From NCBI GenBank assembly GCA_012524025.1, contig JAAYSC010000040.1:1-64000 (forward strand): a stretch of DNA of 64,000 bases, written 5' to 3'. The notes beneath the pieces were generated by a model. That model saw only the letters and a program-made list of their open reading frames with translations, did no database searches and was not told the origin of the DNA. A program made the translations under genes and the position numbers. How positions within the stretch are numbered: position 1 is the first letter of the stretch; every line of letters begins with the position of its first letter. Shown piece by piece: positions 2,609-64,000 of this stretch. This stretch comes from Clostridiales bacterium. GTDB taxonomy: Bacteria > Bacillota > Clostridia > Oscillospirales > Acutalibacteraceae.

Positions 2609-3886
2609 TTGAAGAGTATTTTAATTAAAAACGCTGAGGTCTTTTCAAGGGAGGAAAAAAGTTTTATAAAATCAGATGTCTTAATTATCGGTGGCCTCAT
2701 ATCAAAAATAGATGACGATATTAATTTTGATGCTGACCTTGAAATTAGGGCTGATGGTTTATTTTTAGCACCCGGGCTGGTAGATATACATGTGCACACG
2801 CGAGACCCGGGCTTTACTTATAAGGATGATATCCTGACCGTTGCCGATTGTGCGGTGGCAGGCGGGGTTACCACCATAGTGGCCATGCCAAACACCAAGC
2901 CCACCACCGATAACGAAACTACTATTAAATATATATGCGATAAGAGCAAAAAAGCTAAAGTTAAAGTTTTGCCTTGTGCAAGTGTGAGTCATGGCCTCAA
3001 AGGCGAAGAAGCGGTGAATTTCGAGAGCTTGATAGCTGCGGGGGCATGTGCCTTTTCTGATGATGGGGAACCTGTTTCCAACGCAAAAATGTTAGCCCAT
3101 GCCATGTTAGAGTGTGAAAAACACAATAGTATTATTTTTGCGCATTGTGAAGACAAAAGCCTTGTTGGAAAGGGGATTGTTAACGAAGGCCCTATTTCAG
3201 AAAGATTGAGTGTCGAGGGCATACCGATTTCAAGTGAAAGTGTCGGTGTTGCTCGCGAAATAGCTTTGGCCAAATCCTTGGGGGCACGCATTCATATTTG
3301 CCATGTCAGTACGAAAGATGCTATTGACATAATTAGAAGTGCAAAGGCTGATGGGGTTAGAGTTACCGCCGAAACCGCGCCTCACTATTTTGTGTTTACA
3401 GAAGAAAACTTGCTTGTAAAAGATGCAGATTTTAGAATGAATCCTCCACTTAGAAGGGTAGAGGACAGGGCCGCCATAATAGAGGCTTTACAAGATGGCA
3501 CTTTGGATCTTATCGCCACAGACCACGCTCCACACACGGTTGAAGAAAAAAGCGACTTTGAAAAAGCACCCAACGGAGTTGTCGGTCTTGAAACATCTTT
3601 GGCTGCCGGGATTACCTACTTAGTCAAGGCAGGTCACATTGATATGTATCGCTTGATTGAGCTTATGAGTACTCTTCCCGCTGCAATTTTAGGACTGCCC
3701 GAGCCCGCAATAGCACCCGGTGAAACAGCGGACCTTGTCTTATTTGATCCTGATGAAGAATGGACGGTAAGCCCAGAAAAACTCGCCGGTAAATCTAAAA
3801 ACACACCCTTTAAAGGTATGAAATTAATAGGAAAAGTTAAACACACAATCTGTGCCGGTAAAATGGTTTACAATGATAACATGTGA
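2609..3886 (+). CDS. pyrC: Dihydroorotase
   Basis: DIHVHTRDPGFTYKDDI metal site, ATDHAPHT motif, amidohydrolase architecture. Confidence 0.95.
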   Translation: MKSILIKNAEVFSREEKSFIKSDVLIIGGLISKIDDDINFDADLEIRADGLFLAPGLVDIHVHTRDPGFTYKDDILTVADCAVAGGVTTIVAMPNTKPTTDNETTIKYICDKSKKAKVKVLPCASVSHGLKGEEAVNFESLIAAGACAFSDDGEPVSNAKMLAHAMLECEKHNSIIFAHCEDKSLVGKGIVNEGPISERLSVEGIPISSESVGVAREIALAKSLGARIHICHVSTKDAIDIIRSAKADGVRVTAETAPHYFVFTEENLLVKDADFRMNPPLRRVEDRAAIIEALQDGTLDLIATDHAPHTVEEKSDFEKAPNGVVGLETSLAAGITYLVKAGHIDMYRLIELMSTLPAAILGLPEPAIAPGETADLVLFDPDEEWTVSPEKLAGKSKNTPFKGMKLIGKVKHTICAGKMVYNDNM

Positions 3887-3895
3887 GGTGTAATT

Positions 3896-4828
3896 ATGTC
3901 TTTTGGCTCAATGATTGAAAAAATCGTGGCAAAGAGTAATCCTACCGTAGTAGGTCTTGACCCTACCTTGGAAATGATTCCGCGTTTTATACTGGACTCA
4001 AGCCTGGAAAAGCACGGCAAAGGGTTGGAAGCGGCTGCTGAGGCGGTTTTAAGCTTTAATAAAGCTTTAATTGATGCGCTGTATGATATTGTTCCGGCTG
4101 TAAAGCCACAGTGTGCGTATTATGAAATGCTTGGTTGGCCTGGGGTAAAAGCCTTAAAAGAAACAATTGATTATGCCAAGTCAAAAGATCTGTTCGTCAT
4201 AATCGACGGTAAAAGAAATGATATCGGAACAACCATGCAAGCTTACGCTAATGCACATTTAGGTTATTCAGACATATTTGGGGAAAGTATTTCTGCATTC
4301 GGCGGTGATGCCCTGACAGTTAACGGTTACTTGGGTACAGATGGAATAAAGCCTCTTCTTACTATTTGTGATGAAGAAGATAAAGGTATTTTCGTTTTAT
4401 GCAAAACTTCCAACAAATCATCGGGTGAATTGCAGGACAAACTCATTGACGGACAATCTGTGTACAGCCATATGGGTGACTTATGCCGTCAATGGGGGGA
4501 AGATACAAGCTCAAACTATGGCTATTCGGCAGTGGGCGCCGTTGTGGGTGCCACATACCCTGAACAACTTGAAGAGCTCCGCCGTCAGCTGCCTAATACT
4601 TATTTTTTAGTCCCCGGTTATGGTGCACAGGGCGGTAAGGCTCAAGGCATTGCAGCGGCATTTGACAGCAATGGTTTAGGTGCAATTGTCAATTCATCGC
4701 GCGCTATTATGTGTGCTTACAAAAACAAAGGTTTTGATGAAAAAGATTTTGCATTAGCGGCCAGAGAAGAAGCTTTAAGAATGCGTGATGAGTTATTGGC
4801 TTATATTGCAAAACCACAATTAAAATAA
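3896..4828 (+). CDS. pyrF: Orotidine 5'-phosphate decarboxylase
   Basis: DGKRNDIGTTM active-site motif; ~310 aa; pyr operon context. Confidence 0.94.
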   Translation: MSFGSMIEKIVAKSNPTVVGLDPTLEMIPRFILDSSLEKHGKGLEAAAEAVLSFNKALIDALYDIVPAVKPQCAYYEMLGWPGVKALKETIDYAKSKDLFVIIDGKRNDIGTTMQAYANAHLGYSDIFGESISAFGGDALTVNGYLGTDGIKPLLTICDEEDKGIFVLCKTSNKSSGELQDKLIDGQSVYSHMGDLCRQWGEDTSSNYGYSAVGAVVGATYPEQLEELRRQLPNTYFLVPGYGAQGGKAQGIAAAFDSNGLGAIVNSSRAIMCAYKNKGFDEKDFALAAREEALRMRDELLAYIAKPQLK

Positions 4829-4880
4829 AAAGAAATACTTTGATTATAAATCTCAAGTTATATAGGAGGACTATTGTCCA

Positions 4881-7874
4881 ATGCAGCTTAAACACAGAAA
4901 AGTACTCATAATAGGTGCCGGCCCCACAGTTGTCGGCAGATCTACCGAATATGATTATGCAGCTGCTCAAACCTGTCTTGCCTTAAAAGAAGAGGGTATT
5001 AAAGTAATAATCTTAAACCCTAATGCAGCCACCATGCACACCAATAAAGAGTTTGCCGACAGTGTTTATTTAGAGCCTTTAACAGTAGAAGTGCTGGAAA
5101 AAGTCATAAAAAAAGAAAGGCCGGATGCCATCTTATCAAACCTTGGCGGATTGAGTGCGCTTGACTTAATTAATCAAGAAAAAGTTGCAGAAATTTTAGA
5201 AGAATTTGATGTGAAACTTTTGCCCTTTGGCCTTGAGGTAATTAGGCAAACCACAACCACGCAAGGGTTGAAGGAATTTTTGGCAGACATTAGCGAGCCT
5301 TTTATCAAGTCTTATCATATTAGTAATGTTGATGAGGCCACAGATCTTTCACAAAAACTTGATTTCCCCTTGGTGGTTAAAGCAGGCTTGGAATCCGAGA
5401 GGCTACCAGCAAGTTTTTGTGCAAATGAAAAAGAGCTTAAAAGCACCTTAGAAGAGCTTTTAAAAAACCAAGAGCGATATACCTATGCTCTTGAAAAAAG
5501 CATAATAGGCTGGAAAGAAGTCGAATTTGAACTTGTTAGGGACACAGATGGGCAAGTCTATATTGTTTCTAACCTTGAAAACATTGACCCGGTTGGGGTA
5601 CATGCCGGCGACAGCGTTGCAGTGACACCGGCTAAAACAATTTCAAGTGCTTTAAACAAGCTAATGGCGAAAAGTGTTGAGAACATTGCAAACAAATTAG
5701 GTCTTATCGGCTCTTGCAGTATTAAATTTGCAATAAGACCTAATTCAACTGATGAATTTGTGGTTTTGGGTATAACCCCGGGCTTTAACAGAAATTCAGC
5801 CCTTATATCAAAAGTTACCGGATATCCGATTGCACGCGTTTCCGCAAAACTGATACTTGGAAAGAAACTAAAAGAAATTCATCTTGATGTTAAATCCAAT
5901 CCGCTTCAAAATTCCGGGCCTTGTGCTGTACGCTTTCCCAAGTGGTCATTTGATAAATTAGGTTCCTTTAAAAGAAAAACCAGCAGTGTTATGCAAGCAA
6001 CCGGCGAAATCGTAGCTCTGGGTTCTAACTTTGAATCTGCCTTTATGAAGGCAGTCCGCTCTGTCAATAATAAAAATCTAACTCCGACACTTTCTCATCT
6101 TGCTGATTTGGCAGACAGTGAAATATTAAGCTTGTTGGAAGAGACGGGCGAAGATAAGATTTTTGTTGTTTATGAAGCTGTTAAGAGGCAGTTTGATAAA
6201 ACACAAATTCTAAAACTGTCCGGGATAGATATTTGGTTTCTTGAAAAATTTGCACGCTTGTCAGAAATGGAAAATGCTCTTAAATTTTCGCTTGACGAAA
6301 ATCTTTATATTGAGGCAAAGAGCTTAGGGTTTTTAGATGAAGCTATATTAATGCTAAATCCCTTGTCAACTTTTACACCCGCTCCGCCAAGCTATAAGAG
6401 TGTCAAACCTGTTAAAAAACTAATCGGGTCAAACAAGCCCTATCTTTTTTCTACATATAATCTTTCAAAAGAAGAAGAACATTCAGAAATAAAAAACAGC
6501 ACGATTAACAAGGTGCTTGTGGTAGGTGCCGGTCCCTTATCTGCAGGCCAAGCAGGGGAGTTGGACTACTGTAATGCTCAAAGTATGGCTTGTTTGAAGA
6601 AATTGGGCTTTGAGATTGTTTTGCTAAATAATAATCCGGCCTCTGTCAGCACAGGCTCGGGTTTTTCCGATAAGGTTTATATAGAACCTATTACAAACGA
6701 AGATTTTAAAAACATTTTAGAGCAGGAAAAACCGGGCTATGTTTTGGCACAATTTGCAGGCGAAAGCTCTTTGGAAATAACCCGCATAGCCGAAGAGTCC
6801 GGTGTCAGGGTCCTTGGTAGCTCATCTGAAGTTGAAGCTATTGTAAACAACAGGGATAAGCTAAAAAGACGCATTACAAACTTGGGGCTTAAAAAATTGG
6901 ACAAAGGTCTGCATAAAGCTGTAGCATTTGAGTTAGCGGTAATCAGTGACGGAAATGATGTTATTGTACCCGGTATATCGGAAAACATTGAGAAGTACCT
7001 TATAAATGCAGGTGATTCCATCGCTGTTTATCCAAGCATCAGCTTAAATCAACGAGCCAAAGATTCTGCCTTGGATTGTGCAAAAAAAATTGCACTTGAA
7101 TTGGGGATTAAAGGAATATTTAACCTACAGTTAGCCTTGTTTGAACAAGAGGTTTATGTTTTAAGTGTTTCTACCAAGGCCATGCACAATGTTCCGATGT
7201 TCAGTAAGGCGACCGGGTTTCCACTGATAAAAACAGCCGTAAACTGCATGCTGGGCAAAACAGTTGAAAAAATGGATTTGCCTGTCGGTCTGCTAAAAGA
7301 ATCTGAATATAAATATGTCAGGGTGCCGGTCTTTAGTTTTGACAAAATCAGTGGTGTCGACAGTCAATTGGGTAGTACCATGAAATCCACAGGGGAAGTT
7401 CTGGCATTTGCACCAACCTTTGAAGACGCCCTTTACAAGGGCTTGATTGCATCGGGTATGCAAATAAAAAACAAGGGAAATGTTATTATTACCGTGCGTA
7501 ATTCAGACAAAGAAGAAGTAATTGAAATAGCTGAAAAGTTTGCTCAACTGGGCTTTAATTTATATGCTACATCAGGCACTGCCTACAAACTAAATTCTAA
7601 CTGGGTCGCCACAAATTATTTAAGAAAAATTCATGAAGGCTCGCCTAATATCTTGGACCTTATCTACGAAAAAAAGGTTGTTTATGTCGTATCCACATCC
7701 GAAGAAAATAGAATTTCAATGGGGGACGATGTCTTAATCAGGCGCAAGGCTTTAGAAAATAAGATACCTACACTAACAACTATGGAAACCGCCAGAGCAC
7801 TTTTGAGATGCTTAAGTCTTAAGCGAGTTTTAGGCGATTTAGATATCATGGATATTATGAAAGTTAAGGAGTAG
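4881..7874 (+). CDS. CarB-like protein (carbamoyl-phosphate synthase large subunit homologue) with degenerate ATP-grasp sites; probable pseudoenzyme
   Basis: Whole-length similarity to CarB (tandem halves plus C-terminal MGS-like domain), but EMNPR/EVNPR motifs replaced by GITPG/SVSTK, Gly-rich loop lost and ~70 aa missing in the second half. Confidence 0.85.
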   Translation: MQLKHRKVLIIGAGPTVVGRSTEYDYAAAQTCLALKEEGIKVIILNPNAATMHTNKEFADSVYLEPLTVEVLEKVIKKERPDAILSNLGGLSALDLINQEKVAEILEEFDVKLLPFGLEVIRQTTTTQGLKEFLADISEPFIKSYHISNVDEATDLSQKLDFPLVVKAGLESERLPASFCANEKELKSTLEELLKNQERYTYALEKSIIGWKEVEFELVRDTDGQVYIVSNLENIDPVGVHAGDSVAVTPAKTISSALNKLMAKSVENIANKLGLIGSCSIKFAIRPNSTDEFVVLGITPGFNRNSALISKVTGYPIARVSAKLILGKKLKEIHLDVKSNPLQNSGPCAVRFPKWSFDKLGSFKRKTSSVMQATGEIVALGSNFESAFMKAVRSVNNKNLTPTLSHLADLADSEILSLLEETGEDKIFVVYEAVKRQFDKTQILKLSGIDIWFLEKFARLSEMENALKFSLDENLYIEAKSLGFLDEAILMLNPLSTFTPAPPSYKSVKPVKKLIGSNKPYLFSTYNLSKEEEHSEIKNSTINKVLVVGAGPLSAGQAGELDYCNAQSMACLKKLGFEIVLLNNNPASVSTGSGFSDKVYIEPITNEDFKNILEQEKPGYVLAQFAGESSLEITRIAEESGVRVLGSSSEVEAIVNNRDKLKRRITNLGLKKLDKGLHKAVAFELAVISDGNDVIVPGISENIEKYLINAGDSIAVYPSISLNQRAKDSALDCAKKIALELGIKGIFNLQLALFEQEVYVLSVSTKAMHNVPMFSKATGFPLIKTAVNCMLGKTVEKMDLPVGLLKESEYKYVRVPVFSFDKISGVDSQLGSTMKSTGEVLAFAPTFEDALYKGLIASGMQIKNKGNVIITVRNSDKEEVIEIAEKFAQLGFNLYATSGTAYKLNSNWVATNYLRKIHEGSPNILDLIYEKKVVYVVSTSEENRISMGDDVLIRRKALENKIPTLTTMETARALLRCLSLKRVLGDLDIMDIMKVKE

Positions 7875-7877
7875 ATT

Positions 7878-8645
7878 ATGGCCCCGCTTCAAAAAAAGTT
7901 TGAAATAAAAGAGAACAAAAAACTAAATGAGACTACTTTTAAGATAGTTTTTAATGCCCCGGAAATCGCTTCTATTGCCAAAGCCGGTCAATTTGTCAAT
8001 ATTCTTTGTGAAAATCGGACCTTAAGAAGGCCGATTTCAATTTGTGAAACAGAGCCCGATAAAGGACTTGTCAAAATAGTGTTTGATGTTAGGGGGGAGG
8101 GGACCGCTTGGCTTTCAAAACAAAAAAGCGGTAAAAAAATCGATATACTGGGGCCCTTAGGCAATGGTTTCCCTTGTGAAAAAGGAAACAGAGCTTTGCT
8201 TATCGGCGGTGGCTTGGGAGTTCCGCCACTCCTTGAAACTACAAAGTTTTTTGGTAAAAAGGCTGATGCAATCCTGGGATTTAAGTGTAAGGAAAATTTA
8301 ATCTTACTCGAAAATTTCAAACAAATTTGTGAAAACACTTATCTGACAAGTGATGATGGCAGCTGCGGTACCAGGGGCTTGGTTACGGATGTGATGCAAG
8401 ACCTGATCAAAACAAAAGATTACGACATCGTTTATGCTTGTGGTCCGGAAGCTATGCTAAAATCTGTGGCCAAAATATGTAGTGAGAACAAGTTGGCATG
8501 TTTTGTGTCATTAGAAGAAAGAATGGGTTGCGGCATCGGTGCTTGTTTGGTTTGCGCTTGTGCCGTTAAGGTAAACGGTGAAGTTGACTACAAGCATGTT
8601 TGTAAAGACGGGCCTGTTTTTAATGCAAGGGAGGTGGCTTGGTAA
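7878..8645 (+). CDS. pyrK: Dihydroorotate dehydrogenase electron transfer subunit (FAD, 2Fe-2S)
   Basis: RRPISI flavin motif, GGGLGVPPL, C-terminal CGIGACLVCACAV..HVCKDGPVF 2Fe-2S motif. Confidence 0.94.
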   Translation: MAPLQKKFEIKENKKLNETTFKIVFNAPEIASIAKAGQFVNILCENRTLRRPISICETEPDKGLVKIVFDVRGEGTAWLSKQKSGKKIDILGPLGNGFPCEKGNRALLIGGGLGVPPLLETTKFFGKKADAILGFKCKENLILLENFKQICENTYLTSDDGSCGTRGLVTDVMQDLIKTKDYDIVYACGPEAMLKSVAKICSENKLACFVSLEERMGCGIGACLVCACAVKVNGEVDYKHVCKDGPVFNAREVAW

Positions 8646-9559
8646 TGGCTGATTTAAGTATTAATATTGCAGGTGTTAATTTTAAAAACCCGATAATTAC
8701 AGCCTCCGGTACATTTGGTTTTGGTAAGGAATATAATGATTTTTATGATATAGATAAGCTGGGCGGCATTTCTTGTTCGGCAGTCACCTTGGAAAAGCGA
8801 CCGGGAAACCCACCACCTCGAATAGCAGAAACACCTGCGGGAATGCTAAACAGTGTCGGTCTGCAAAACCCAGGCGTAAAGTCTTTCATCAAAGATGATT
8901 TGCCATGGCTTAAAAAACAAGATTTAGTTGTCATTGCCAATATCGCCGGAAGCACTTATGAAGATTACTCAGAGTCTGTTGAGCTTGTCAGCTCATCAGA
9001 TGTTGATATGGTCGAGCTTAATATTTCCTGCCCCAATGTTAAAGAGGGTGGGGTCGCTTTTGGCACCAACTGCCAAAGTGTCGAACTTATAACAAAGACA
9101 GTTCGCAAAGTTTGTAAAAAACCTTTAATTGTTAAGCTTTCACCCAATGTTACGGATATTTCTGAAATAGCCAAAGCCGCTGAAGCTGCCGGCGCTGATG
9201 CAATTTCACTTATCAATACCTTAACCGGCATGCAAATCGACATTGAAACTAAAAGGCCCTTGCTAAAAAATAATGTAGGCGGGCTTTCCGGGCCTGCTGT
9301 TTTTCCGGTAGCTCTCAGAATGGTCTGGCAGGTTGCAAACTCGGTAAAATTACCCGTCATTGGAATGGGCGGAATCAGCACTTGGCAAGATGCGGTTCAA
9401 ATGTTCTTGGCGGGTGCAAGTGCCATTCAGGTAGGAACTGCAAACTTTTTAGATGTATATGCGCCTTTAAAGATTATAGACGGCTTAGGCGCCTATTTAA
9501 ATGATAAAGGCCATGCTAACATTAAAGATATTATAGGGAAAGTTGAGGTCTGGCAATGA
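8639..9559 (+). CDS. pyrD: Dihydroorotate dehydrogenase, catalytic subunit (class 1B)
   Basis: ASGTFGFGKEY, LNISCPNVKEGG, GMGGI; overlaps pyrK. Confidence 0.95.
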   Translation: MVMADLSINIAGVNFKNPIITASGTFGFGKEYNDFYDIDKLGGISCSAVTLEKRPGNPPPRIAETPAGMLNSVGLQNPGVKSFIKDDLPWLKKQDLVVIANIAGSTYEDYSESVELVSSSDVDMVELNISCPNVKEGGVAFGTNCQSVELITKTVRKVCKKPLIVKLSPNVTDISEIAKAAEAAGADAISLINTLTGMQIDIETKRPLLKNNVGGLSGPAVFPVALRMVWQVANSVKLPVIGMGGISTWQDAVQMFLAGASAIQVGTANFLDVYAPLKIIDGLGAYLNDKGHANIKDIIGKVEVWQ

Positions 9560-9978
9560 AAATCTTGGCAATAGATTTTGGTGATGCCAGGACGGGGCTT
9601 GCTGTTTGTGATGAGCTTGAAATACTTGCTACGCCGCTCAAAGTAATAAAACACAAAAACACAGAAGCTTTAGTTGAAGAAATTAAGAAAATTATAGATG
9701 AAAACTCAATCCAAGGCCTTGTTTTAGGTTTACCTAAAAACATGGATTCGAGTTTAGGTTTCAGAGCTCAAAAAAGCCTCGAATTTGCCAAAAAACTTGA
9801 AGAAGAAACCGGTATAGAAGTAGCGCTTTGGGACGAACGATTGACAACGGTTGCCGCGCATGGTTTTTTAAACACAACAAATGTCAGAGGAAAAAAAAGA
9901 AAAAACTTAGTAGACGCAGTCGCTGCCACAATAATTTTGCAAGATTATATTAACAGCAGAAAAAATCAGAATTTTTAG
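9556..9978 (+). CDS. ruvX: Putative pre-16S rRNA nuclease / Holliday junction resolvase-like YqgF
   Basis: LAIDFGDARTGLAVCD, LGLPKNMD, WDERLTTVAA motifs. Confidence 0.92.
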   Translation: MKILAIDFGDARTGLAVCDELEILATPLKVIKHKNTEALVEEIKKIIDENSIQGLVLGLPKNMDSSLGFRAQKSLEFAKKLEEETGIEVALWDERLTTVAAHGFLNTTNVRGKKRKNLVDAVAATIILQDYINSRKNQNF

Positions 9979-32281: not shown

Positions 32282-32556
32282 ATATAAACTCACTATGCGC
32301 TTTGAAGGAGACAGTAAGCGATTCGCAAACCTTTGTTTCAGAGAAAATATGCCGTGGCTGAAAGCATATTTGAAGGTGAATCTGCTGAATTTCACTCCCG
32401 AGCTTTGTTGCCGAGGGCTTTAGGGTCTTGTAGGTTACAACGGTCAGCCACCGTTAAAGGGCAAAGAGCGTTCGAGTTTAAAAAACTCGAAAATGCAGGG
32501 TGGTAACGCGGAGTTTGTCTTCGTCCCTCGTTTGGGGCGAAGGCTTATTTTTTTGG
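32282..32556 (+). promoter_or_regulatory. T-box leader (tRNA-Phe-sensing riboswitch) with terminator/antiterminator
   Basis: T-box sequence GCAGGGTGGTAACGCGGAG at ~32495-32513; terminator CTTCGTCCC..GGGGCGAAG + T7 at 32519-32553; candidate specifier TTC in GCTGAATTTCACTCCC; directly upstream of pheS. Confidence 0.93.
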
Positions 32557-32566
32557 AGGAGTATAT

Positions 32567-33586
32567 ATGAAAGAGCAATTGAGCAAAGTAAGAGAGCTGG
32601 CATATGAAGCGCTTGAAGCTGTCAGGAGCAGCCAAGAACTTGATCTTGTCAGAGTAAAATATCTGGGCAAAAAAGGTGAACTTACCGCACTCTTGAAACA
32701 AATGGGGAAGTTGACTGCTGAAGAAAGACCCATTGTAGGGCAACTTGCCAACGAAATTCGATCTCAAATTGAACAGATGATCAGCCAGCGTTTGAAAGCC
32801 TTGAGGGCAGCCGATTTGGAAGAGCGACTTTCAAAAGAAAAGATTGATGTTACTCTGCCTGGTGTCAGGCATAAAATAGGCTCCAAACATCCCTTAACGA
32901 TCGTTTTGGAAGAAGTTGAAGAAATCTTTTTGGGCTTAGGCTTTTCTATAGCCGAGGGCCCGGAAGTTGAGCTCGATTATTACAATTTCGAAGCATTGAA
33001 TATACCTAAAAATCATCCGGCAAGAGATACTCAAGATACATTTTATATTAGCGAAACCACTCTCTTGCGTACCCAAACATCCCCGGTTCAAATACGGGTA
33101 ATGGAAACACAAACGCCACCGATCAGAATCATAGCCCCCGGCAGAGTTTATCGTTCTGATGCAGTCGATGCAACGCACTCCCCTTTATTTCATCAGATTG
33201 AGGGCTTGGTAATCGATAAGGGCATTACCATGGGGCACTTAAAAGGCTGCTTGGAAGCTTTCGCTAAAAGACTTTATGGGGATGAAACAAAAATTCGCCT
33301 CAGGCCTCACCATTTCCCCTTTACAGAACCATCCTGTGAAATCGATGTATCTTGTTTCAGATGTAAAGGAGCCGGTTGCGGTATGTGTAAAGGCGAAGGC
33401 TGGATTGAAATTTTGGGCGGTGGCATGGTTCATCCCAAAGTTTTAAAAACAGGCGGAATAGACCCTGAAATCTACAGTGGGTTTGCCTTTGGTGTTGGTT
33501 TAGAGCGACTAACAATGTTTAGATTTAATATTGATGACCTTAGGTTGTTTTTTGAAAATGATATTAGATTCTTGAGTCAGTTTTAG
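32567..33586 (+). CDS. pheS: Phenylalanine--tRNA ligase subunit alpha
   Basis: HPARDTQDTFY, GRVYRSDAVDATHSPLFHQIEG, GVGLERL. Confidence 0.97.
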   Translation: MKEQLSKVRELAYEALEAVRSSQELDLVRVKYLGKKGELTALLKQMGKLTAEERPIVGQLANEIRSQIEQMISQRLKALRAADLEERLSKEKIDVTLPGVRHKIGSKHPLTIVLEEVEEIFLGLGFSIAEGPEVELDYYNFEALNIPKNHPARDTQDTFYISETTLLRTQTSPVQIRVMETQTPPIRIIAPGRVYRSDAVDATHSPLFHQIEGLVIDKGITMGHLKGCLEAFAKRLYGDETKIRLRPHHFPFTEPSCEIDVSCFRCKGAGCGMCKGEGWIEILGGGMVHPKVLKTGGIDPEIYSGFAFGVGLERLTMFRFNIDDLRLFFENDIRFLSQF

Positions 33587-61277: not shown

Positions 61278-64000
61278 TTAATCTTTTAACCATTGGGCTG
61301 TAAATGTTTGCGACCCGCCGACTGCCTTTGATGGAACCGCAGGTGACCAACCAACAAATATATATCCCTCTCTGCTCACAGCCGGAATTTGAACATTTTC
61401 GCCCGGCGACAAGAGAATTTCGGTTCCCCCGCTTCCGCCGTTTGCATTAAAGGTATATTTTAATTTGGTGGGAGTCCACTGGGCAACATAGGTAATGTTT
61501 TCAGCCGGCACGGTTGAAGAAAGAGCGGGGCTCCAGCCGGTAAAGCTATAACCTTCACGGGTTATTGTGGGGGCATCAAGCGTGTCGCCATAGGTCATTA
61601 AGGCTCCGGTCGAGCCTGAACCGCCGTTGGCGTCAAAGGTCACATAGTACTTGTTGGGAGCCCATTGGGCAGAATAGGAGTGCACTCCTTCAAGGGCAAC
61701 CGAAGGCAAATCGGGGTTCCAACCGGTGAAGATGTAGCCTTGGCGAGTCATCAAAGGTGAATCTATCTTGCTACCCGGTGTTAAAAGATCCGACGAACCC
61801 CCGCTACCACCATTGGGCAGGAAGTAAAGATTGTTGCCGTCAACTTGCCATTTTGCTGTATAGGTCGTATCTTTAGCCGGAACCGAGTCAGGCACTTCAG
61901 GCTCCCAACCTAAAAAGGTGTAGCCATCGCGTGTAACAACAGGCGCTGTAAGTGTAGCACCATGAGCCATTTGTTGAGTGCTTCCGCCGGTTCCGCCATT
62001 TGCATCAAAAGTAATTTGGTATTTATTAGCTGTCCATTGGGCGGTATAGGTTGAATCTTTACCCGGTACGGTTGCCGGTACGGCCGGCAGCCAGCCTGAA
62101 AGTGTGTATCCGTCACGCGAAACAGCCGGTGCAGAAAGAGGTGCACCGTATGGCATTAAGCTAGCGCTACCGCCGGTGCCGCCATTTGCGTCAAAAGTAA
62201 TCATGTAGTTGTCAGAAGTCCATTTTGCAACATATACGGCATCACCCGTAACAGGTCCGATATTAGGTGACCAACCGGCAAAAACATAACCGTCTTTTGT
62301 AACAGTGGGCGGAATCGGAGTTTCACCATAAAGAACTTGCTTAACTGTGCCGCCTTGCCCACCGTCCGCATTAAAAGTAATGTTATAAGTATTTTTCTGC
62401 CATTGAGCAACATAGGTGGCATTATAGCCCGGAACTTTATCAGGAACAGCCGGATCCCAATGTGTAAAAGTGTGACCTTCCCTGTAAACAAAAGGAGGGT
62501 TTAAGCTTGTATCATAAGTTTGGGTGACGCTTGTTGAGCCTTGCCCACCGTTGGCATCAAATGTTTGCGTATAACTTCCAAGTTCCCAAATTGCATAAAA
62601 AGTGAGAAGGGAACCTTGAGTTGATGCAAGGTTTAAAACACTTTCCATATCTTCATATACCGGCGTTACAGCACCACTTTGGGTTGACCACCCAAGGAAT
62701 TCGTAGCCGTATTTAAGAAATCCGTTTGGAGTCAGGCTCTTACTTGTATCATAAGTATGTGTAGAGCTTGCAGTTGAGCCGGATGTATGACCATTGCCTG
62801 AATAATTAATATTATAAGTTATAGGAGTCCATTGGGCTTTATAAACGGTGTTAACGGAAGGTACGGTTGAAGGTAGTGCCGGAGACCAGCCCGATAAGGT
62901 ATAACCTAACTTTGACACGGAAGGCGCTTGCAAGGGCTGACCGACAGCCATTTCAGTCTGACCCTGTCCGCCTGTTCCACCGTTGGCATCAAAAGTTATT
63001 TGAACCGTTTGACCCCATTGAGCATAGAGGGTGTGGTCACTTGTTCCGACAGGAAAAGAAGCACCAGGGTTGTAAACAACACCGCTGGTTGGGGAGGTGC
63101 CCCAGCCTATATGTTCTGCCGCGCCATTTGAGAATTTATTGGCCGAAAGATTTGCTGATTGGTCTTTGTTGATCAGTTGCGGGTTCATCCCACCGGAACC
63201 GCCATTAGCATCAAAAAACACTGTTTGTGCATTGTTAAGGTCACTTTCAGTAGCGGTATAGCTCGTATAGCTGCCATCAATGTCAAGGTCAAAAACTCTT
63301 ACCCCGGGGTTACCGTCATTATAGGAGTTGACACCGGCCGACTTACCAAAGCCTAAATCAATTCCATCAGGGGTAGTAACAGTAAAAGAGTTCATGTGGT
63401 CATGACCAAAATAAGCTCCTTTAAAATTCCCGTAATCGCGCCAAGCTTCATACAAAGTTTTACTTCCGTATTGAGACGAAGAACGATGAGCCGTGGATTC
63501 ATAAGTGCTTTTATTTGCAGGGCACGGTTTTTCCTTGTAAATTTGCGCCTCTGTCGTTCCGTAGGCAGACTTTTCCCAATTGATTCTTTCGGGAATTAAA
63601 TAATAGGTTGAGCTACCATAGGGAGTACCGTGACCGACATAACCAACACTGTTATCGGTCGGCTTTGAAGTTGTCATCCCTAAATCATAGACATCGTTAA
63701 CGATTATATGTTGGAACTGAATAGCCGGTACGGTCGGATAGGTTTGTGCGGTTTGAATATAATAATTAATTTGGTCTGTATAGCAGCAGTCATAGCCAGA
63801 AGAAGCATATGCTCCCGAGTCCATAACATAAACCAAATAGCCGGGCGTCCCGCTTGTTTGACCACGAGGATATATCTCAATAACACCGTTGCCCGCCCCG
63901 GTAAGGCTCTGAACATCGTGATCAATGAAAAGGTCACCGCCACGCTGTTTATAGTATGCATACTGATCATCTTTGCTAGGAGGTTTGTTGGGCCAATTGC
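61278..64000 (-). CDS. Calcineurin-like phosphoesterase with C-terminal InlB B-type repeats (5' end beyond the window)
   Basis: GHGTPYGSSTYY and YFGHDHMNSF metallophosphoesterase motifs, then ten FDANGG..GY.F.GW.P..P...Y.AQW repeats; frame stays open to the window edge. Confidence 0.88.
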   Translation of the reverse strand, partial: NWPNKPPSKDDQYAYYKQRGGDLFIDHDVQSLTGAGNGVIEIYPRGQTSGTPGYLVYVMDSGAYASSGYDCCYTDQINYYIQTAQTYPTVPAIQFQHIIVNDVYDLGMTTSKPTDNSVGYVGHGTPYGSSTYYLIPERINWEKSAYGTTEAQIYKEKPCPANKSTYESTAHRSSSQYGSKTLYEAWRDYGNFKGAYFGHDHMNSFTVTTPDGIDLGFGKSAGVNSYNDGNPGVRVFDLDIDGSYTSYTATESDLNNAQTVFFDANGGSGGMNPQLINKDQSANLSANKFSNGAAEHIGWGTSPTSGVVYNPGASFPVGTSDHTLYAQWGQTVQITFDANGGTGGQGQTEMAVGQPLQAPSVSKLGYTLSGWSPALPSTVPSVNTVYKAQWTPITYNINYSGNGHTSGSTASSTHTYDTSKSLTPNGFLKYGYEFLGWSTQSGAVTPVYEDMESVLNLASTQGSLLTFYAIWELGSYTQTFDANGGQGSTSVTQTYDTSLNPPFVYREGHTFTHWDPAVPDKVPGYNATYVAQWQKNTYNITFNADGGQGGTVKQVLYGETPIPPTVTKDGYVFAGWSPNIGPVTGDAVYVAKWTSDNYMITFDANGGTGGSASLMPYGAPLSAPAVSRDGYTLSGWLPAVPATVPGKDSTYTAQWTANKYQITFDANGGTGGSTQQMAHGATLTAPVVTRDGYTFLGWEPEVPDSVPAKDTTYTAKWQVDGNNLYFLPNGGSGGSSDLLTPGSKIDSPLMTRQGYIFTGWNPDLPSVALEGVHSYSAQWAPNKYYVTFDANGGSGSTGALMTYGDTLDAPTITREGYSFTGWSPALSSTVPAENITYVAQWTPTKLKYTFNANGGSGGTEILLSPGENVQIPAVSREGYIFVGWSPAVPSKAVGGSQTFTAQWLKD
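61284..63240 (-). repeat. Ten tandem ~60-75-aa InlB B/Listeria-Bacteroides-type repeats
   Basis: Repeated FDANGGTGG...GYTFxGWxPxxPxxVPxxxxTYxAQW blocks counted in the translation. Confidence 0.9.

Follow-up and report, generated by a model that had tools for sequence, protein, structure and literature searches.

What does a pyrimidine operon keep when one of its genes has the length and domain order of CarB, the large subunit of carbamoyl phosphate synthetase (CPSase), and has lost the residues at which that enzyme works? The gene that raises this question lies at positions 4881–7874 (+) of the 64,000-nucleotide stretch of clostridial DNA analyzed here (the window), and reads from an ATG through 997 open codons without a frameshift, with a strong ribosome-binding site (AGGAGG, 4864–4869, +, read directly) 11 nt upstream of the ATG. 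Its surroundings form a conserved block in the order PBP-pyrC-pyrF-X-pyrK-pyrD-ruvX, where X is the carB-like gene, and the following forward-strand members were assigned from ORFs and gene order: pyrC (dihydroorotase, 2609–3886, in an order common to the degenerate loci and those of their sister clade), pyrF (OMP decarboxylase, 3896–4828), pyrK (dihydroorotate dehydrogenase electron-transfer subunit, 7878–8645), pyrD (dihydroorotate dehydrogenase, 8639–9559) and a ruvX/yqgF-like gene (9556–9978) that ends the block. Since the gap between pyrF and the carB-like gene is no more than 52 bases long, and relatives have carA there, carA has been deleted in the window; the first-pass annotation of this locus had noticed neither this loss nor the fact that the defect is common to relatives. 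Rfam finds no RNA regulator at the pyr operon, and its sole match in the window is a distant T-box leader (RF00230, 102.7 bits) at 32293–32531 (+), directly upstream of a pheS-like ORF at 32567. Elsewhere in the window, an ORF of 852 aa at 61278–63836 (−) carries nine Listeria-Bacteroides (InlB B-type) repeats (PF09479).

Comparison of the window protein with E. coli CarB shows that the two sequences align end to end (phmmer). The domain order is that of full-length CarB (two preATP-grasp/ATP-grasp halves, the oligomerization domain and the MGS-like domain) with the lid of half 2 missing, and Pfam detects CPSase, ATP-grasp and MGS domains only, with no DNA-binding or other added domain. An AlphaFold2 model prepared with an alignment of 41 other CarBs has a pLDDT of 82.5 and a pTM of 0.84, and when it is compared with the PDB using Foldseek, E. 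coli CarB structures take ranks 1–7 with a TM score of 0.91 over the length. Catalytic capacity was scored at 15 residues in E. coli numbering, the catalytic set of the structural literature, each letter being checked on the E. coli sequence. The window protein keeps 3 of the 15; among the 127 CarB sequences compared, every full-length CarB outside the clade of degenerate copies described below (the dead clade) keeps at least 14. In half 1 the phosphate loop (5373–5420, +), which is RPAYTLGGTGGG in intact CarB, has become KAGLESERLPAS (R169 to K167), the Gly-rich loop is gone, the metal-ligand motif (5763–5804, +) is altered (E299 to G297, N301 to T299, R303 to G301), and R129 and Q285 are replaced by T127 and K282; E215 and H243 are the only key residues kept in this half, which has no metal ligand. 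In half 2 the corresponding motif (7158–7199, +) shows E841 to S762, N843 to S764 and R845 to K766, accompanied by E761 to A682 and H788 to N709, with R715 deleted and Q829 retained as Q750. The ATP-grasp lid of half 2 is absent across a junction at 6891–6896 (+), where the model passes from helix 658–667 directly into strand 681–690. The first-pass annotation, which had described an unbroken CarB homolog with both ATP-grasp sites destroyed, is thus borne out by alignment and model, and its motif readings were correct; the deletion that it saw in half 2 is real as well, with its size revised from about 70 residues to about 62 (E. coli ~690–757) by alignment and model. A search of the alignment for metal ligands at shifted positions, which the first-pass annotation would have taken as a refutation, found none near the motifs of the window protein.

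Judged by these residues, the window gene is a catalytically dead paralog of CarB that has lost both ATP sites, and because the active-site features that define the catalytic CarB family were tested and are absent, its predicted product is not counted in that family. Profile scores divide on the matter: the protein falls below the cut-off of TIGR01369 (797 vs. 1027) and above that of NF003671 (807 vs. 599), and automatic annotation would therefore still label it a CPSase large subunit. Genome annotation and metabolic models can in this manner, for example via NF003671, count dead genes as enzymes.

The source genome was searched family by family for genes that make or use carbamoyl phosphate. 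OTCase, with arginine genes on contig C41, and ATCase, on contig C91, are both present, and carbamoyl phosphate is therefore needed for the arginine and the pyrimidine pathways. One other CarB was found, on contig C65, with all catalytic residues and adjoining the only CarA of the genome; this is the second carAB for which the first-pass annotation had advised a search, and its presence shows that the CPSase genes of this genome are not limited to the one in the window. Carbamate kinase was considered as an alternative source of carbamoyl phosphate and rejected, having no match above cut-off in the source genome. The C65 CarA has itself lost its catalytic Cys and His (C269 to G, H353 to Y), which are essential for glutamine hydrolysis (PMC6245113), and the CPSase of the source species therefore probably uses free ammonia. 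Loss of Cys269 (usually with His353) is seen in the C65 CarA (L131:12970–14049) and in 21 of the 102 CarAs compared; the protein is kept, with an intact partner CarB in most cases, and these are predicted to be ammonia-dependent CPSases. On a CarA tree, loss of the glutaminase residues takes six changes, of which at least four are forced by well-supported branches.

The degenerate gene is not peculiar to the window. It occupies the same operon place in seven further genomes (G100, G102, G006, G002, G139, G009 and G144), which brings the carriers, a small set of gut-type Clostridia, to eight genomes in four genera of one family, and orthologs at about 40% identity come from separately assembled genomes. 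Two carriers share the genus of the source organism: G100 has the order pyrF-carA-carB-pyrK with both subunits degenerate and lacks about 63 residues at the same place in the half-2 lid, and G102 has a C-terminal fragment (57% identical) where its contig breaks off, with pyrK and pyrD next to it downstream. The three other genera (G006; G002 and G139; G009 and G144) have degenerate CarA-CarB pairs. A separate CarB was read and found intact in 7 of the 8 genomes (G000, the source genome, and G100, G102, G006, G002, G139 and G009), and G144 has a second match. A survey of 398 genomes from the family (135 genera) and 394 genomes from the order, these being species representatives and mostly draft assemblies, revealed no further pseudo-CarB by score (clade range >1700 bits); single residues were read for the best hits only, and those outside the dead clade that were read have 15 of 15 key residues each. 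The closest named CarB relatives belong to Clostridia assigned to Ruminococcus and Oscillospiraceae.

In a maximum-likelihood tree of 52 CarBs (quick search, SH-aLRT support) a single clade (100%) unites the seven dead copies that are nearly full-length, and it nests with nine catalytically intact CarBs of the pyr-operon type (100%); the second CarBs of these genomes, which are intact, group far away in a clade of their own. No branch of the tree is longer than that of the window protein (2.95), and its joining with G100 was flagged as the meeting of two long branches, but genus and lid deletion are common to both. In the sister clade a canonical CarB stands at the same operon position, and the operon either lacks carA or encodes a CarA that reads GES or GEA at C269/H353/E355 and so has lost glutaminase residues. 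On this topology the dead CarB is of single origin and descends from the pyr-operon CarB of the family; the losses probably began with glutaminase activity, went on to CarB catalysis and, in the window, extended to carA itself. A canonical carB in close relatives, which the first-pass annotation would have taken as a sign of recent decay or of an assembly error, appears in the sister clade only, the copies in the same genus and in three other genera being degenerate, a mixed outcome that does not overturn the reading. Within the sister clade, one pyr operon (L190, G116:C2:37000–51000) has an intact CarB but lacks carA at its usual place after pyrF, which is an independent loss of that gene. 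The comparison also brought to light intact CarBs of ~1350–1430 aa with a C-terminal diaminopimelate epimerase fusion (PF01678, 162–220 bits) in many gut Clostridia and some Treponema (L143:6258–10337, L141:3615–7706, L012, L031, L032 [Treponema]), for which no paper was found in the literature searched.

Selection on the dead copies was gauged from dN/dS in two congeneric pairs, an analysis that the first-pass annotation had also recommended. For the dead CarB the values are 0.049 (G009/G144) and 0.065 (G002/G139), for its CarA in the same pairs 0.066 and 0.064, and for the pyrC, pyrF, pyrK and pyrD neighbors 0.03–0.11, all approximate, with dS of 1.2–2.0 for most gene pairs and thus near saturation. 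Relaxed, neutral evolution of the dead CarB is not tenable on such ratios. The distribution of constraint along the chain is more telling: the MGS domain has the lowest omega of all domains in both dead pairs (0.023 and 0.018), and in three intact CarB pairs it is among the faster domains. Between genera, with the sets matched in number of rows, the ratio of MGS distance to that of the rest of the protein is 0.50 (bootstrap 0.39–0.66) for the dead copies, 1.81 (1.34–2.52) for the intact CarBs carried by the same five genomes, and 1.94 (1.52–2.63) for the sister clade. Relative to the sister clade, divergence is raised 5–12-fold in the catalytic domains (9–12-fold in the ATP-grasp lids) and only 1.2-fold in the MGS domain. 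Among the dead copies the MGS domain has 47 invariant columns and among the intact CarBs 27, and every other domain shows the opposite, these counts being indicative only, as the intact set has more members and mixes two groups of paralogs. By all these measures constraint is inverted, the MGS domain evolving at about twice the rate of the other domains in intact CarBs and at half their rate in dead ones; the whole dead CarB is retained by selection, as the substitution patterns indicate, with the MGS domain under the strongest constraint. The proposal of the first-pass annotation that selection has kept a non-catalytic protein is therefore upheld by the single-origin clade, by dN/dS of 0.05–0.07, by the MGS constraint and by the separate intact CarB.

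The domain so favored (residues 859–997; 7455–7871, +; Pfam MGS, E 4.7e-16) is intact, as had been said of it, down to its effector site. K877, T897, T900, K916 and H918 of the window protein are the equivalents of E. coli K954, T974, T977, K993 and H995, and these are kept in 8 of 8 dead copies; in place of Asn1015 the dead copies have Ser or Cys, and the commonest residue there among the CarBs compared is Ser too. Inhibition by UMP and its binding have been linked to Thr977 and Lys993; CarB dimers form via the regulatory domains, and self-association involves both these and the oligomerization domains (PMC6245113).

Because the strongest constraint falls on the part with which E. coli CarB binds UMP and IMP, a UMP sensor is proposed. 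That the protein is a retained nucleotide sensor is well supported by the pattern of constraint; by analogy with prozymes it probably acts in trans on the remaining CPSase, ligand, partner and direction of effect being inferred. Like E. coli CarB, the window protein would bind UMP (or IMP), and it would join mixed oligomers with the catalytic C65 CarAB via MGS and oligomerization surfaces, thereby tying the output of carbamoyl phosphate to the pyrimidine pool on the pattern of trypanosome prozymes. The window copy has no CarA partner, and the proposed function is therefore independent of CarA. To this reading, a nucleotide-sensing pseudoenzyme acting in trans on C65 CarAB, we assign a probability of about one half. 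Three observations count against it: the C65 CarB retains its own UMP-site residues (K954, T974, T977, K993), so that a partner is perhaps unneeded; the oligomerization domain of the dead copies is not specially conserved (identity 0.39, omega 0.07–0.16); and the good conservation of the half-1 C subdomain (identity 0.54) is unexplained by MGS function alone. A fuller version, in which the pyr-operon CarB lost its chemistry in a lineage with two carAB sets and became a bacterial CPSase prozyme, a dedicated UMP-sensing subunit controlling in trans the sole remaining CPSase (which in the source species, with its glutaminase-dead CarA, should run on free ammonia), asks for more and is put forward tentatively, as somewhat less probable than its core.

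Purifying selection that extends beyond the MGS domain also suits a structural role, in which the protein would be the scaffold of a pyrimidine-enzyme complex (ATCase, PyrC, PyrK or PyrD) whose assembly is tuned by nucleotide binding. The first-pass annotation had offered sensor or scaffold as alternatives, and it is the former that the MGS constraint favors. The gene is kept in the pyr operon throughout the dead clade, and the pathway has a precedent in a pseudo-dihydroorotase that is required for Pseudomonas ATCase (PMC7053772). However, the operon position is inherited from a catalytic ancestor and is no evidence of contact, which leaves a scaffold for PyrC, PyrD or PyrK without specific support, and the positions at which all dead copies agree on a residue that is rare among the intact CarBs compared number only ten and outline no obvious new surface. 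A scaffold is considered unlikely. Still less probable is a regulator that senses nucleotides but acts on something else than CPSase (transport, transcription or another enzyme); the MGS constraint is silent on which target is read out, but Pfam detects no DNA-binding or other added domain, and CPSase itself is the nearest partner by homology. A changed enzyme, in which one remaining half uses ATP for a different reaction, ranks slightly lower again. Half 1 of G009 and G144 does keep R129, R169, both loop glycines, E215, H243 and E299 (with Q285R and N301D), but the window protein has little of this, half 2 is dead in all members, and no catalytic set is common to the clade. A decaying pseudogene or an assembly or frameshift artefact, to which the long window branch and the deleted carA might point, is rejected as very improbable given the open frame with its ribosome-binding site, the orthologs in seven other genomes and their low dN/dS.

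The lineage bears on a wider problem, as CPSase, with which pyrimidine and arginine synthesis begin, is a textbook allosteric enzyme and a lineage that keeps the effector domain and no catalysis separates sensing from chemistry. The mechanism of UMP inhibition of CPSase has been described as still obscure (PMC6022934), and the dead-CarB lineage offers a ready natural system for studying the effector domain of CarB. No report of a pseudoenzyme or prozyme of the CPSase large subunit was found in the literature searched, which excluded most subscription journals; pseudoenzymes, prozymes and an inactive dihydroorotase are already known, and the CPSase large-subunit case appears to be new.

One of the closest known systems is E. 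coli CarB itself (NF003671/TIGR01369), which the window protein resembles in domain order, whole-length fold, an MGS domain with UMP-site residues and position in a pyr operon, and from which it differs in lacking both catalytic sites and the half-2 lid and in falling below the TIGR01369 cut-off, though it exceeds that of NF003671. In vertebrate CPS I the glutaminase domain is inactive and both ATP sites are kept; there too a catalytic module was lost and the chain kept, but the window protein keeps neither ATP site. The prozymes of trypanosomatids (the AdoMetDC prozyme and the dead DHS paralog; PMC5201418, PMC3663545) likewise place a dead paralog beside an active one, with allostery in trans via hetero-oligomers of the kind proposed here; they involve unrelated enzymes and hosts, the hetero-oligomer is established there and only predicted for the window protein, and in the latter, unlike the prozymes, the part that is kept is the ligand-sensing domain. 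The pseudo-dihydroorotase of Pseudomonas aeruginosa ATCase (PMC7053772) is, like the window protein, an inactive homolog of a pyrimidine enzyme that a bacterium has kept, and differs from it in being a structural subunit of ATCase and no CPSase.
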